DNA of 64,000 bases from Hyunsoonleella pacifica (lineage in GTDB: Bacteria > Bacteroidota > Bacteroidia > Flavobacteriales > Flavobacteriaceae). Where the stretch lies: contig NZ_SIRS01000002.1 in the NCBI RefSeq assembly GCF_004310335.1, positions 558,001-622,000 on the forward strand. The letters run 5' to 3'. The position numbers and the translations under genes were made by a program. The stretch's first letter is position 1, and each line of letters opens with the position of its first letter. Below the pieces are notes generated by a model. It worked only from the letters and a program-made list of their open reading frames with translations. It was not told where the DNA came from and did not search any database. Below are positions 1-6,753 of this stretch, in pieces.

Positions 1-3000
1 AGTTGTTTGCTTATAATCTTTATCAGATTTATAAGCATGTTCATGTACTTTTGCAGCCGTTTCATACTTCAAAGACTCAAAACATCTTATACGTCTAATT
101 CTATTAATTTTCTCTCCTTTTTTGTTAAGCATCCAAATCCCTTTATCTAAGGCTGATTTTAAACTTCCTCCTGCAGAAATCTCTAGTTTAACCTGTTCTT
201 CAATAATTTCTCCAACTGATTTATCAACAATTTTATTCTTAATTTCTTCTAAAGTTTTAAAACCATTTGAATTTGCATCCTTCTTAAAAACTAAATCTTT
301 TCTAATAACAAGTGAAATAGTATCTTCTAAAAGCATTTTGCTTTTTTCATCAAAAAGTACTTTGTTTTCTTCATCTCTTTTTGGTTGTTTTATTGCTCCA
401 TAAAAAGATTCTCCGTGTAATTGCCCTCTAACGGTATCGCCTTTTGCAATCAATGGAATTTTATTACCATAAACATCTAATTTAAAATGTTTTTTACCAT
501 TTTCATCAATAAAAGTAGCATATTGAATTCTGCCTCGTTTTCGCACTTTTTTAACTGATGGCGTTAACGCAGTGAACTCTAATTGGTTATTAATGAGTGT
601 TTCCTTCTCAAAATCTAAAATATATGATGGCTTAAAGTTTTCCCAATTTCTGGGCCTTTCATGATAGGTTTTACCTGTATGACTATCCTTTTCTTCATTA
701 TATTTTTCTATTATAGAATCTCTAACTGAAAATTTTGGAATTAATGTTAAAATAGCGGCGTCAATGGCATGGTGACTATGTTTTGTTCTATCTTTTTTGT
801 CGGAAGAAAGCTTTATATTATATACTTCTTTAAAAGCATTTACCACATTACCTTTTTGAACTTCTACCTTTTTAAAAACAGTTTTAAGATAGGGCAATGC
901 ATATTTTGTCATGGTTTGAGTGTCTCGTAATTGACTATTTTTCCATCCCGCTTTGTATTCTGTGATTGTAAATGTTTCTAACTTTTTCTTCCAATAATCC
1001 CGATTAAACCTATTATAATGACGCATTTGTATGCAATAGTCTTTATACTCTTTTGTACTTGCATATTTTGTCTTTTTTAGCCAATCGTCAAAAAGATTTT
1101 CATAATGTTCTAGTTTATCCTTTATAAATTGAAGACGAGGTTCTATTGCCGAATACTGTACGCCTTTAAAATCAACTGTTTCAGAATAATTGGGAAGTTG
1201 TGTTGGGATTTGCTTCTTTTTCACAGTTCGGTTATAAATTGCATCAGCAATAGTTAAATTTTTTAGTTCGTTGTCAAAACACATACTAGCAGGAATAGTA
1301 TGCTCAAAATCGTACTTATTACCACTAAATAAGTCACATACATTTATAGAATTCCCAGTGTAAATACATATTTTATTTTGTTCATTCCATAAACGTATTT
1401 TGTGGATTAGTGACATATCATTAGTGTCATAGCTTGTATCGCACTCTTTATTTATTTCTTCTATTGTTTTCTTGAAATTATTGTTTTCCCGTTCACGTTC
1501 AGCTTGCCATTTTTCAATCGCTTTTCTCTTGTTAGCATCATTTAATTCTCTTGCGATTTCAACAACAATACGCGTATCTTCATCAATTTGGTTAGTTTGT
1601 AAAAGATAATTAAGCAAGTGCCTTAATTTATGAAGCGTTTTTAATGCCATTGGGTTTTTAAATCCCTTTGAAAGAGGCTCTGGACTACCCAATAATTTTA
1701 ACGAGATAGCTTCCTGTTCCGCATTGGGGTTTTTGTACAAAAAGTTTTCTAAGTCTGAATCTTTAATGTAAACAGTATTTCCTTTTGCCTTTATTTCATG
1801 ATAGTATTCAGCATTACTATATTTTTCTTGCTCTGAAGGATGCCAAAGATATTTTTTATTTTCATCCGGTACTTGATATGTTTCCTGAAGCCAATTAAAA
1901 ATTCTATCATGCAACCGTGGTTGTTGTAAAAAACCTGTTTTTCTATTTTTTAAGAACTCCCGAAACTTTTCAGAAACATATGTTATAGCGAACTCTTTTT
2001 CATCTTGAGTATAACGACTCCAAGTTTTATCTCCAATAACTTGATTAAGTTTTTCATTCACTAATCTTTTTTCACTTTCGTCAAGAGCTCTGTCATCTTC
2101 AATGGCATAAGAATCAAACTTTATAGATTCGTCTTGTATTATAGCATTTACTACATTATTTAATAGTTTTTCATTATCAGTATCGACTAGTATTTTATCA
2201 ATTTCAGACGAGAAATATTCAATAGAATCATCAGTAATATCATGTGTTCCTAATACTTTGTGAATATTAGCGAGATACACGGCTTTACTATAAATAATAC
2301 CTTTTCTTAAATAAGGAAGTACTTTTTTTATTGCTGAAAGACTTAATGTAGCATAACCTTGTTGCAATTTTATTTTTGAAAATTTCTCTACTTTATCATT
2401 GCTTAAGTTAAGTTTTTCTTTTCCAAATTCTTCTAACTTATCTTGACTATCAAAAGTAAAAAGCACATGCCAAACATCTTCAAACGAATACTTTTTTTTA
2501 GTTTTCTTAATAGGCTGTTCTGGTCTTTCATTAATAGTATTCCAATTATATTCCTCCTGCCAGTTTTCTCCCAATAATTCTTGAAAAGAATTTAGAAGTT
2601 TAGCTGAAAGTACTTTAGTTTTGGGTCTATCTTTAAATCTGGACTCCATTTTAGCACCATCCTTTCTTAACTTATTAATAATCGTACTCAGTTTGAAATC
2701 GTTTGATGCCTTGTAAAAAAGAGGATATATATGCTGTAACAAGTAATTTTCAAGTTTCCATCCTTCAGGTTGTTTAATTTTTAAATTGTTTATAAAAACC
2801 CAAGTTCTATACTCTTCATATAATGGATGACTTACTGGCGCTCGTTTTTTGTTTTTCTCATAAGTACAAATACCAATTAATCCTTTTTGTGTTCGAAGAG
2901 GTCTTTGCCAAATAATTGATTTCCAAAGTTTTTTATAAAAATCTTCGTCTACCCCATGCGCATCACAAATTAGTTTTAGTTCGTTTTCATAATCTTTTCT

Positions 3001-3702
3001 TAAGTTGTAACGGTTTCTTATTCTATTTTGTTTCGTTTTCTTTTGGTAATGATATAATGCAGCTCCTAACGATTTATATTTGTTTAAATAAGTAGATATT
3101 TCGTTTCTACCAGGTGTTCCTGTTTTTTTACTTCCTTCAAGCATTGTTTTTGCTTCTTCTTCATCACGACCTTTAAAACCGCGTCGTTGTACTAATTGGT
3201 AAAATACACGTCCTAATATTTGAGGATTATCTTTGAACACTTTCTTAGAATCTGCATTACCACAAACTGCCTTGGTTCTAAAAATATAATAGCTTTCATG
3301 GTTGTCTTTTGAAAACAAATGAAAATCTGGTTTCCCATCGCCATTAAAATCAAAACGTAACCATTCAATAAATGCTTTACTACTTGGGTATTGACGTGAT
3401 TGACCTTTCGTGTATTTTCGCCATTGGTTAAGTTCCTCAATGGTTAAAGGACACAAATCATTTTTTATTAAGAGTTGCAATAATTCCCATTTTCGATATT
3501 TCTCTGCTTGATAGTTTCTCCTTTTTCCACGACTTTCGGTACGTTTTTTAACTTTAGGAAATTCAATGCCTTTTTCTTCTCCTACACCTTTATCAAAAGT
3601 TAGAACTCCTTTTTTAATAATTTGATTTTCCTTTTCCGAAGTGTTACGTATTGCCCAACCTATGGAGTTGGTTCCCAAATCTATACCAAGAGTAATGTTC
3701 AT
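1..3702 (-). CDS. cas9: CRISPR-associated endonuclease Cas9, type II-C-like (3' part outside window)
   Basis: RNA-guided DNA endonuclease that cuts both strands of invading DNA with its HNH and RuvC domains, guided by crRNA:tracrRNA. Reading the minus strand from ATG at 3702 gives 1234 residues without a stop; the C-terminal PAM-interacting end lies beyond position 1. RuvC-I (TLGIDLGTNSIGWAI) carries D8. An arginine-rich bridge helix follows at about residues 53-80. RuvC-II (VVEIAREL) has E715, the HNH motif FEHTIPAS has H801 with a partner asparagine near N824, and RuvC-III (HHAIDAA) has H978 and D981. All catalytic residues are therefore present. The length points to the large Bacteroidota group of II-C enzymes. 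A tracrRNA locus is divergent on its upstream side. cas1, cas2 and the array are expected to the left. Confidence 0.95.
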   Translation of the reverse strand, partial: MNITLGIDLGTNSIGWAIRNTSEKENQIIKKGVLTFDKGVGEEKGIEFPKVKKRTESRGKRRNYQAEKYRKWELLQLLIKNDLCPLTIEELNQWRKYTKGQSRQYPSSKAFIEWLRFDFNGDGKPDFHLFSKDNHESYYIFRTKAVCGNADSKKVFKDNPQILGRVFYQLVQRRGFKGRDEEEAKTMLEGSKKTGTPGRNEISTYLNKYKSLGAALYHYQKKTKQNRIRNRYNLRKDYENELKLICDAHGVDEDFYKKLWKSIIWQRPLRTQKGLIGICTYEKNKKRAPVSHPLYEEYRTWVFINNLKIKQPEGWKLENYLLQHIYPLFYKASNDFKLSTIINKLRKDGAKMESRFKDRPKTKVLSAKLLNSFQELLGENWQEEYNWNTINERPEQPIKKTKKKYSFEDVWHVLFTFDSQDKLEEFGKEKLNLSNDKVEKFSKIKLQQGYATLSLSAIKKVLPYLRKGIIYSKAVYLANIHKVLGTHDITDDSIEYFSSEIDKILVDTDNEKLLNNVVNAIIQDESIKFDSYAIEDDRALDESEKRLVNEKLNQVIGDKTWSRYTQDEKEFAITYVSEKFREFLKNRKTGFLQQPRLHDRIFNWLQETYQVPDENKKYLWHPSEQEKYSNAEYYHEIKAKGNTVYIKDSDLENFLYKNPNAEQEAISLKLLGSPEPLSKGFKNPMALKTLHKLRHLLNYLLQTNQIDEDTRIVVEIARELNDANKRKAIEKWQAERERENNNFKKTIEEINKECDTSYDTNDMSLIHKIRLWNEQNKICIYTGNSINVCDLFSGNKYDFEHTIPASMCFDNELKNLTIADAIYNRTVKKKQIPTQLPNYSETVDFKGVQYSAIEPRLQFIKDKLEHYENLFDDWLKKTKYASTKEYKDYCIQMRHYNRFNRDYWKKKLETFTITEYKAGWKNSQLRDTQTMTKYALPYLKTVFKKVEVQKGNVVNAFKEVYNIKLSSDKKDRTKHSHHAIDAAILTLIPKFSVRDSIIEKYNEEKDSHTGKTYHERPRNWENFKPSYILDFEKETLINNQLEFTALTPSVKKVRKRGRIQYATFIDENGKKHFKLDVYGNKIPLIAKGDTVRGQLHGESFYGAIKQPKRDEENKVLFDEKSKMLLEDTISLVIRKDLVFKKDANSNGFKTLEEIKNKIVDKSVGEIIEEQVKLEISAGGSLKSALDKGIWMLNKKGEKINRIRRIRCFESLKYETAAKVHEHAYKSDKDYKQTT

Positions 3703-3735
3703 AATTATGTTAAAAATTATATTTAAACAGGTTAT

Positions 3736-3768
3736 ATATATCGAAAATAATAAATATTTTTACACAAA
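3736..3768 (-). promoter_or_regulatory. Putative cas9 promoter with an 11-base site matching the tracrRNA upstream region
   Basis: On the minus strand, TATTTTCG (3749 to 3742) fits the Bacteroidota -7 consensus TAnnTTTG with one mismatch. It would start transcription about 34 bases before the cas9 ATG. A TTTG at 3768-3765 could be the -33 element, but the 15-base spacing is shorter than the usual 19-21. The 11 bases TTTCGATATAT (3746 to 3736) overlap the -7 box and are identical to the 11 bases directly before the repeat-like sequence of the tracrRNA locus (3873-3883, plus strand). Confidence 0.5.
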
Positions 3769-3883
3769 TGAAAAGAAAAGAGTATTTGTATACAGTACTT
3801 TGTTTTAAGTGTCCAAAACTTATCTCTGGTCTAAATTGACTTATCTTTTCATTCTTTTATAATTCTATCGACTTTCGATATAT

Positions 3884-3994
3884 GTTGTGAATTGCTTTAT
3901 TTTTTATATTTTTATAATCTGAAAGCTTTTCACAATAAGGCTATAAGCCGAAGAAAAATCTTAAATCCTGCGTACTCCGTGGGATTTTTATTTT
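3884..3994 (+). ncRNA. tracrRNA locus (possible long form starting further upstream)
   Basis: Trans-activating RNA that pairs with the crRNA repeat and binds Cas9. The anti-repeat is GAAAGCTTTTCACAATAAGG (3921-3940). It is followed by a nexus-like hairpin GGCT-ATA-AGCC (3939-3949) and a terminator with a 10-bp stem AAATCCTGCG / CGTGGGATTT (3963-3987) and T-rich tail. ACAATAAGGC after the duplex resembles known II-C tracrRNAs such as that of Neisseria. Directly upstream, GTTGTGAATTGCTTT (3884-3898) is complementary to the anti-repeat (7 bp, a TT/TT internal loop, then 5 bp). A small upper stem TTATA / TATAA closes the loop, so this one transcript can fold like a single-guide RNA. The 5' end is not known: a start near 3884 gives a short form, and a start upstream of about 3860 would include a guide-like segment. 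Confidence 0.82.
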
Positions 3995-4100
3995 CATGCT
4001 AATAAACTTAAACGCTATTAAAAGTTTTAGGGAAGTTTTTAAAAATAGTAAAAGTTTAATTATTAATGCAGAATTTTCGTAAAAACTATGAAAGTTTCTT
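3995..4100. other. AT-rich spacer with nothing recognised
   Basis: Stretch between the tracrRNA terminator and the structured RNA. I see no reading frame, repeat unit or hairpin worth naming here, only several scattered AGTTT-like words. Confidence 0.5.
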
Positions 4101-4878: not shown

Positions 4879-5748
4879 ATGCGAATAGAAAAATACACTT
4901 TTGTAGTATTGTTTATTGTTAGTTTGTTTTTTGGATGTTCTAACGAAACAGCTGATGTTGAAGAGACTTCAAACGATACTTTAGACACAAGCAAAGTTTA
5001 TGAAGAATTAAATATTTCTTACGGAAGCCATGAGCGTCAAAAGTTTGATTTGTACTTACCAGCGAATAGAACCTCTGTTACTAAAACTATTATTTTAATA
5101 CACGGTGGTGGATGGACATCTGGTGATAAAGGCGATATGGATGCTATTAAACTTTTAATCAATCAAGAACTTCCTGATGTGGCAATTGTAAATATGAATT
5201 ATAGGTTAGCAGATGCTAATAACCCACCATACCCTATGCAAATTGATGATATTTCCAGTTTAGTTGCATTTTTAAAGGTTAATAAAGACAGGTATTCTAT
5301 TTCTGAAGATATTGGGTTTGTTGGCACCAGTGCTGGGGCACATTTATCGCTTTTATGGAGCTATGCTTTTGATAATGATGCTAAAGTAGATATGGTTTGT
5401 AGTATTGTGGGGCCAACCAATTTTACTGATCCTGCTTATTTAAATAATACAAACCCTGTTTTGCAGGATCTGCTAAATGTTTTTGGAATTGACACTACAA
5501 CTGATTTCCTTGAAGAAGTAAGTCCGTTATTTCAAGTAAAAGCGTCTTCACCTCCTACTATACTGTTTTATGGTGGACAAGACCCGTTAATTCCTACCAC
5601 TCAAGGTACTGATTTAAGGGATAAACTTGAGGCTTTGGGAGTTAGTTTTGAATTTACTTTATATGAAAATGCAGGACATGGATGGACAGGATTAGAGTTA
5701 TTGGACACTTGGAGTAAATTAAAACTATTTATTGAAACATATTTATAA
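4879..5748 (+). CDS. Alpha/beta hydrolase lipoprotein (BD-FAE / esterase-like)
   Basis: Exported serine hydrolase of 289 residues. The N-terminus is a lipoprotein signal with the lipobox ending in FFGC, so Cys20 is the likely lipidation site. The oxyanion motif HGGGW lies near residue 75, and the nucleophile elbow GTSAG places the serine near 151. GGQDPLIP near 231 supplies the aspartate and GHGW near 266 the histidine. This order fits carboxylesterase/acetylesterase-type enzymes of the BD-FAE group. The substrate cannot be read from the sequence. It is followed after about 40 bp by an exported aspartyl protease-like gene in the same direction. Confidence 0.85.
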   Translation: MRIEKYTFVVLFIVSLFFGCSNETADVEETSNDTLDTSKVYEELNISYGSHERQKFDLYLPANRTSVTKTIILIHGGGWTSGDKGDMDAIKLLINQELPDVAIVNMNYRLADANNPPYPMQIDDISSLVAFLKVNKDRYSISEDIGFVGTSAGAHLSLLWSYAFDNDAKVDMVCSIVGPTNFTDPAYLNNTNPVLQDLLNVFGIDTTTDFLEEVSPLFQVKASSPPTILFYGGQDPLIPTTQGTDLRDKLEALGVSFEFTLYENAGHGWTGLELLDTWSKLKLFIETYL

Positions 5749-5790: not shown

Positions 5791-6753
5791 ATGAGCCGTC
5801 TTGTACTAACCTTATTTTTAATCCTTCCTATTGTTTGTTTTTCTGGAAACAAGAAAGTAAACCCACCGGTAATTTTTAAAAACGCTGAAATTTTAAATGC
5901 AAACACTACTAGAATTCCATTTAAATTGGTAGATCACCTAATGGTTGTTCAAGCTGAACTTTTAGATAAAAAAGGAAGTTTTATTATTGATACAGGGGCT
6001 GAGGCCATGATTTTAAATCAGGTGCATTTTAATAATCTGTATGAATTTCATAAAAATTCTAAAGAAGTTTCAGGTGTTAATGATGTCCTTGACTATTCTT
6101 ATGAAAAACGAATAGATGCCTTTGATTTAAGTGGGTTTAGACTTGAAAATAAAGTTTCAGATGTTATTGATTTGTCGCATGTGGAAAAAAGTAAAAAAAT
6201 TAAACTTTTAGGTATTATAGGCTATGATGTTTTAAAAGATTACGAGGTGTTTGTAGATTTATACTTAAAACAAATTACACTTACCAAAACAGATAAAAAG
6301 GGAAACCCACTTAACGATAAGATATATTTAGAGACTATTGTTGATAGCTTAGATTTTACTTTAAAAAAGCATACTATAGTTGTTAATGCTCTTATTAACA
6401 ACCAAAAACTTAAGCTAGGTATAGATACTGCAGCAGAATTTAACCAAATCAATAAAAGTGTTAATAAAAAAGCGTTGCGTTATTTTATTCCCAAGAAACG
6501 ATTAAAGCTTAGTGATGCTGGTGGTAAAAGTATTCGGGTTTTGGCAGGAAAATTGCATAGGGTTAAATTGAATAATAATGTTTATTTTGGTCCTATGTAC
6601 ACAGTTTTAACCAATTTAAATCAACTTAATGAAACCTTTGGTACACAGCTAGATGGTATTTTAGGGTATGAATTTTTTGCTCAAAAGCGCACTATTATCA
6701 ATTACAAAAAAGAAAAGTTGTATTTTATTGACTATCCTCTAAATACACAATGA
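5791..6753 (+). CDS. Exported retropepsin-like aspartyl protease family protein
   Basis: A 320-residue protein with an N-terminal signal peptide (SRLVLTLFLILPIVCFSG). It holds two retropepsin-like half sites: IIDTGAEAMIL near residue 66 and LGIDTAAEFNQI near 211, each with the D-T/S-G/A core. A second glycine-rich strand, GILGYEFF, lies near the C-terminus, as in Bacteroidota aspartyl protease family proteins. No PDZ domain is visible. The second site reads DTA rather than DTG, which may weaken catalysis. The stop overlaps the start of the next gene by 4 bases (ATGA), so the two are translationally coupled. Confidence 0.8.
   Translation: MSRLVLTLFLILPIVCFSGNKKVNPPVIFKNAEILNANTTRIPFKLVDHLMVVQAELLDKKGSFIIDTGAEAMILNQVHFNNLYEFHKNSKEVSGVNDVLDYSYEKRIDAFDLSGFRLENKVSDVIDLSHVEKSKKIKLLGIIGYDVLKDYEVFVDLYLKQITLTKTDKKGNPLNDKIYLETIVDSLDFTLKKHTIVVNALINNQKLKLGIDTAAEFNQINKSVNKKALRYFIPKKRLKLSDAGGKSIRVLAGKLHRVKLNNNVYFGPMYTVLTNLNQLNETFGTQLDGILGYEFFAQKRTIINYKKEKLYFIDYPLNTQ

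Follow-up and report, generated by a model that had tools for sequence, protein, structure and literature searches.

Upstream of cas9 in the window analysed here, a stretch of 64,000 nucleotides from Hyunsoonleella pacifica, lies a region which likely encodes a natural guide RNA for the adjacent type II-C Cas9; the enzyme would bind its own promoter and block cas9 transcription without cutting. In the mechanism we propose, a long transcript would begin at a putative start near 3765-3770 and comprise a leader, the guide, a repeat copy and the tracrRNA. Folding predicts that the repeat copy and the anti-repeat pair in cis to form a single guide. Cas9 loaded with it would then bind 3736-3746 beside the PAM-like ATAACC and block cas9 transcription, presumably without cutting because the match ends after 11 bases. 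Since the target is next to the putative divergent promoter from which the guide RNA would be transcribed, the guide may also damp its own production. Relatives would follow the same logic with other sequences, in fused or split form, and the comparison of loci suggests that eight Cas9s turn themselves down without cutting.

The system of the window is of type II-C, in agreement with the sequence-only reading, which had called it II-C-like. To the left of the window, the remainder of cas9, cas1 and cas2 share one strand, with the array on the opposite one; the Cas1 and Cas2 families are matched by NCBIfam, and Cas9 has its HNH domain. Thus cas9, cas1, cas2, an array (repeat of 46 nt, spacers of about 30 nt) and a tracrRNA are present, in an operon with neither csn2 nor cas4. 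Inspection of the open reading frames of at least 90 aa in L024 found no additional cas-like neighbour of the operon. At its upstream end (L024, about 5572-5632), the array carries a degenerate repeat which lacks its first part.

The features of the guide region are collected in Table 1. The 11-mer TTTCGATATAT occurs at two sites only in the 64 kb scanned, 3873-3883 (+) and 3736-3746 (-), exactly the pair that the sequence-only reading had pointed out. The second site sits 34-44 bases upstream of the cas9 ATG (3702-3700, -), as that reading had also stated, and overlaps the cas9-strand box TATTTTCG (3749-3742), which by motif bears out its placement across the likely cas9 -7 box. Its minus-strand 3' flank reads ATAACCTG. 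Directly 3' of the guide copy stands GTTGTGAATTGCTTT (3884-3898), which matches bases 1-15 of the array repeat exactly and recurs at 29 array places on the same contig; the claim that the guide abuts a repeat-like segment pairing with the anti-repeat is therefore upheld by an exact 15-base repeat copy and by the predicted fold. In 100 dinucleotide shuffles the 11-mer matched 0.03 times on average and was seen twice in none. A junction-anchored match of at least 11 bases within the 430 bases upstream arose in one of 1000 dinucleotide shuffles, and two of 187 pseudo-junctions in the window reached at least 10 bases. These values fit the earlier estimate of a chance match as unlikely, not impossible. 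From this single locus a chance origin of the 11-base match is unlikely, and it is the relatives which settle the question.

Table 1. Coordinates of the elements in the cas9 upstream region of the window
Feature	Positions	Strand	Basis
cas9, first 1234 codons (1405 aa in all)	1-3702	-	NCBIfam TIGR01865, E 5e-96; HNH domain
PAM-like flank ATAACCTG of target	3728-3735	-	NNA[A/G]CC in six of six type-A guide loci
Target of the guide, TTTCGATATAT	3736-3746	-	11-mer match
cas9 -7-like box TATTTTCG (predicted), overlapping the target	3742-3749	-	motif; TAnnTT at the target edge in seven of eight good loci
-7-like box TATTTTTA, putative divergent promoter of the long RNA	3755-3762	+	weaker than the TAnnTTTG of relatives
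Structured leader RNA	3768-3852	+	closing stem 3768-3775/3845-3852; hairpin 3807-3821 with loop UCCAA at 3812-3816; z about -2
Guide, matching part	3873-3883	+	unpaired in the predicted fold except for the last base
Repeat copy GTTGTGAATTGCTTT	3884-3898	+	identity to array repeat; pairing with anti-repeat
-7-like box TATATTTT, which may drive a short tracrRNA	3905-3912	+	motif read from the letters
tracrRNA anti-repeat	3921-3936	+	pairing, fold
tracrRNA tail: short hairpin and terminator-like hairpin	3937-3992	+	fold; core common to 25 type-A loci

Relatives were collected along several routes. A cas9 search of a collection of 84,980 species, with only close relatives in reach, returned 15 loci. 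Pattern scans for the tracrRNA core covered 397, 88, 395, 320 and 365 genomes (overlapping sets, the fourth with a narrower pattern) and matched in 28, 4, 25, 15 and 12 genomes, respectively. After removal of 8 duplicate loci, near-copies being kept, 70 distinct loci were counted: 25 of tracr type A (core AAGCCGAAG) and 45 of type B. Loci of tracr type C (core AAGGATTATTCC) were located by comparing the L018 array with 173 genomes, a search swamped by other arrays; the sample comprises 40 array neighbourhoods, 38 of which hold the tracr core, and together with L113 and L114 this makes 40 loci. The apparent candidate L114 turned out to be a second, partial copy of the tracrRNA core, about 100 bases before the tracr core (minus strand, 8381), and no guide. 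Scans of viral contigs, plasmids and phages for the tracr pattern found nothing.

We counted as a repeat copy any segment that differs at no more than 4 positions from the complement of the locus's own anti-repeat. Six of the 25 type-A loci carry one 5' of the anti-repeat, always starting with GTTGTRAAT, and the other 19 come no closer than 5 or 6 mismatches. These six are the window, L013 (Epilithonimonas caeni), L014 (Salegentibacter sp. R32), L018 (a Chryseobacterium MAG), L023 (a Chitinophagaceae MAG) and L097, and each of them has a junction-anchored match of 10-11 bases upstream of its own cas9, on the cas9 strand. Among the 40 type-C loci two further guides were found, with 11 (L132) and 13 (L141) matching bases.

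In these eight good loci the guides are all different, and each matches the upstream region of its own cas9 over 10-13 bases as against 4-8 bases in the regions of the other seven. The two sites hence vary together in eight of eight loci (6 type A, 2 type C), which supports the self-targeting reading; a lack of such co-variation had been named there as a refuting result. Numbers of shuffles reaching the observed length, per 1000 dinucleotide shuffles, were 1 for the window, 2 for L013, 4 for L014, 1 for L132 and 0 for L018, L023, L097 and L141. Pseudo-junctions with at least 10 bases numbered 0-2 of 187 in seven of the eight; the 24 of L132 are explained by the duplication of its region. The assignment of the guide to the cas9 promoter rests on this comparative evidence, while transcription, Cas9 loading, the PAM and repression of cas9 are what we infer.

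The matches break off early: in six of the eight loci the first mismatch falls at position 12, and the exceptions are L014 (position 11) and L141 (position 14). A natural single guide, tracr-L, was reportedly described by Workman in 2021 for the type II-A system of Streptococcus pyogenes. According to the accessible part of one source (PMC11417352), tracr-L uses an 11-base match to the cas promoter; the matches found here, which stop at 10, 11 or 13 bases, are close to this length, known to suffice in S. pyogenes.

Two of the 45 type-B loci, which are of the Flavobacterium type, gave weak candidates. The match of L045 has 12 bases, on the other strand and in low-complexity sequence; 2 of 1000 shuffles reached it, and the same guide matches foreign regions over 12 and 10 bases, the only source of such large off-diagonal matches. 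The L070 guide is anchored over 8 bases (13 of 14 if one mismatch is allowed), a length reached in 68 of 1000 shuffles. A 13-base match in L017 was rejected, as its 'junction' is the cas9 start region and it has no repeat copy.

The flanks of the targets provide a second line of comparison. The six type-A targets are followed by ATAACCTG, TGAACCTG, ACAACCTA, TAAACCTA, AAAGCCAA and TTAACCAG. NNA[A/G]CC is present at all six, as against 30 of 5404 background positions in the same regions; the naive chance of six out of six is 3e-14, uncorrected for the choice of the motif after the six flanks had been viewed. The type-C flanks differ, with TAAAATAT and AGAAATGA at the two sites of L132 and GAAACATT in L141. 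We predict NNA[A/G]CC to be a candidate PAM-like motif for a group of Cas9s. In the window genome the 11-mer followed by NNA occurs at two places, with CC next at the cas9 site and TT next at the other. With four occurrences of the reversed control pattern, chance alone would be expected to supply a second copy.

The literature search found no PAM for this Cas9 group. The published Riemerella PAM (PMC6008519, as far as its accessible text goes) was set aside, as the two genomes with Riemerella-like repeats differ in tracrRNA type and encode Cas9s of 1538 and 1534 aa. No spacer-derived PAM emerged from comparing the arrays or array-bearing stretches of L024, L014, L018, L011, L012, L009, L158 and L161:9000-15001 with the phage collection (L010, L016 and L019 were left out). 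The strong matches are to repeats in Riemerella phages and the others are weak (E about 0.1 to 8); L012 and L161 gave none. In a same-genus search, one array spacer (L024, 5982-6011) matches the chromosome of its own genome exactly over 30 bases, at G000:C1:91721-91750 (L115, 2222-2251), inside an open reading frame of 287 aa. The 3' flank of this self-match, CTCGCATC, does not contain NNA[A/G]CC.

Riemerella phages CRP19 (L098, 2001-2289), RAP44 (L099, 2001-2107) and GDF21 (L101, 1501-1633) carry a small CRISPR-like array made of II-C type repeats and one 30-base spacer (CRP19 has two additional spacer copies); a terminator-like hairpin comes after it. One of the array comparisons listed 12 Riemerella phage records and one labelled Shigella. 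The latter, Shigella phage Henu10 (OQ791282.1, hit H41), shows the match pattern of Riemerella phages like PT15 and may therefore carry a mistaken host label. It is possible that the mini-array serves as an RNA-based anti-CRISPR or as a weapon between phages. Compared with the cas9 upstream regions of the 40 type-C loci, its spacers gave nothing beyond one 9-base match.

For the window, folding of guide, repeat copy, anti-repeat and tail together predicts a single guide (z -5.3; 0 of 200 shuffles reached this stability). Ten bases at the 5' end stay unpaired; the repeat/anti-repeat stem comes next, and then short hairpins and the terminator-like hairpin. Similar folds, again with ten unpaired bases, were obtained for L014 (z -5.4), L023 (z -2.8) and L097 (z -5.3). 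The region thus has two marks of a natural single guide: a repeat-like segment which pairs in cis with the anti-repeat in the predicted fold, and a short seed match upstream of its own cas9 which ends at the repeat junction, the promoter being assigned from motifs.

In this fused form (the window, L014, L023, L097) the repeat copy lies 42-47 bases 5' of the tracr core. In the split form (L013, L018, L132, L141) this distance is 125-191 bases, and a terminator-like hairpin with a T-run follows 3' of the repeat copy. The split forms would be separate crRNA-like RNAs which need the tracrRNA in trans. L013 is the least clear of them, since its hairpin can join a longer stem. In L132 the repeat copy reads GTTGTGAATTACTTTC and the anti-repeat GAAAGTAATTCAC, and the 31 array repeats in the fetched stretch read GTTGTGAATTGCTTTC; judged by these letters, the regulatory RNA and the tracrRNA have changed together, with the array unchanged.

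The distribution of the guides among relatives is scattered. The cas9 start is 194-357 bases from the tracr core in the six type-A guide loci as against 36-120 bases in 16 loci without a guide (22 of the 25 type-A loci measured). A tree of Cas9 N-termini, built by a quick method from 92 of 106 rows (14 with short or missing N-termini omitted), places guide loci beside guide-less ones: the window with L015, L014 with L011, L013 with L016, L020, L082 and L084, L141 with L123, and L132 with L138. The guide module is frequently gained or lost. It is dispensable, because 19 of the 25 type-A loci and 38 of the 40 type-C loci have none, a point against the proposed mechanism.

Promoter-like boxes surround the targets. 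In seven of the eight good loci, L097 being the exception, the cas9 strand has a TAnnTT box no more than 12 bases from the target start. On the guide strand, TAnnTTTG follows 6-25 bases past the target in all seven relatives; the window has the weaker TATTTTTA, 9 bases past. We take these boxes to be the Bacteroidota -7-like promoter motif. As they flank the target on both strands, Cas9 bound there would be expected to influence cas9 and possibly also the guide RNA.

Between the divergent box and the guide, the leader can fold as a closed junction with hairpins. The conserved leader with the UCCAA hairpin is found in the window, L013, L014, L018, L023, L132 and L141. UCCAA stands in a leader loop in seven of the eight loci (L097 is without it) and in both copies of L132, with 0.04-0.18 occurrences expected per leader. 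The closing stems vary in sequence, from ATGAAAAG/CTTTTCAT in the window to GAAATAAG/CTTATTTC in L141. Folds of single leaders have z values from +0.2 to -3.0 and are energetically convincing in few, so the case for structure rests on the pattern and not on energy. RNAalifold found no consensus on a MAFFT alignment of the leaders. The UCCAA loop presumably resembles the tRNA-Trp loop, in the manner of an anticodon loop. ARAGORN found no tRNA in window positions 3700-4100 or in seven relatives, and all Rfam matches stayed under the gathering scores. L132 has a tandem duplication of target, box and leader, some 190-560 bases ahead of its tracr core (at 6026); the copies have diverged and both keep the 11-base target and the UCCAA hairpin.

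Such a leader invites a wider reading, which we consider unlikely: Cas9 and the short guide would control a two-way promoter serving cas9 and the leader, the latter being a sensor or toxic RNA freed when Cas9 is lost or blocked. To our knowledge, an RNA switch or addiction module guarded in this way would be the first for Cas9. Quite unlikely, too, is a version modelled on CreTA, in which transcription from the divergent promoter yields a toxic or sensing RNA, namely the leader or a part of it, and guided Cas9 shuts this promoter off; the effect on cas9 would then be secondary or a second function. The order of target-promoter, RNA, and guide with repeat copy is that of creTA, to the extent described in the available text of PMC9458426; the conservation of the leader (UCCAA hairpin in seven of eight loci) exceeds what a guide needs, and the joint duplication in L132 with the 11-base match kept at both targets also speaks for it. 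However, the target lies close to the cas9 start and, in seven of the eight loci, at a cas9-strand box, the module is often missing in close relatives, which is little like addiction, and no toxic product of the leader is known.

That both 11-mers are one promoter or operator element, the alternative offered by the sequence-only reading and here taken to be bound by a protein, is very improbable. The target does overlap a promoter-like box, and the match of L141 includes such a box. But the sequence differs at every locus, the match stops at the repeat junction and NNA[A/G]CC occurs on the target side only; a shared element predicts neither the junction nor the one-sided flank nor the exchange of sequence. 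Just as hard to credit is the idea that the inverted copies terminate a small mobile element or form a stem inside a single RNA: although they frame a cassette which comes and goes (194-357 as against 36-120 bases) and whole-stretch folds pair both copies in several loci, the loci have no end sequence in common, the divergent -7-like box lies past the target in eight of eight so that a divergent transcript would be without the target, and neither the flank motif nor the break-off at about 11 bases is accounted for.

If the self-targeting guide is real, Cas9 self-regulation by natural guides reaches beyond type II-A to type II-C and to another phylum, with fused and split guides coexisting among close relatives. 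The eight distinct guide-target pairs would form a natural experiment on the seed bases which permit binding without cutting. How common a built-in brake is in Cas9 systems becomes directly testable, and a conserved leader RNA has been brought to light. The literature searched contained no cas9-directed natural guide in type II-C, an earlier report elsewhere being possible; what it did yield, available in part, was work on the II-A case and on CreTA, reviews, and a paper on a Neisseria scaRNA.

Repression by a natural single guide has been shown in type II-A, according to the accessible parts of two sources (PMC11417352, PMC8730458). From these same excerpts, the present guide is like tracr-L in the fusion of a repeat-like segment to the tracrRNA, in the 11-base match to a cas promoter beside a PAM (here PAM-like) and in the predicted binding without cutting (PMC11417352, PMC8730458). 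Unlike tracr-L, it belongs to a II-C system in Bacteroidota, with a divergent promoter geometry, a structured leader before the guide and another PAM-like motif; four of the eight good loci have split forms, and its repression is inferred. With CreTA of type I-B it would share, in the portion of PMC9458426 at hand, an ectopic repeat, a partial spacer match to an adjacent promoter (here putative) and the order target-promoter, RNA, guide; the effector here would be Cas9 in place of Cascade, and the target also overlaps the putative cas9 promoter. The scaRNA of Francisella novicida is likewise a degenerate-repeat RNA with which a catalytically active Cas9 represses transcription through a short match, and it is apart from the tracrRNA, as in the split forms here (PMC9458426, PMC8730458, both in part). 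Its targets, in the same partial texts (PMC9458426, PMC8730458), are lipoprotein genes, whereas the guides described here match the region upstream of cas9 itself.
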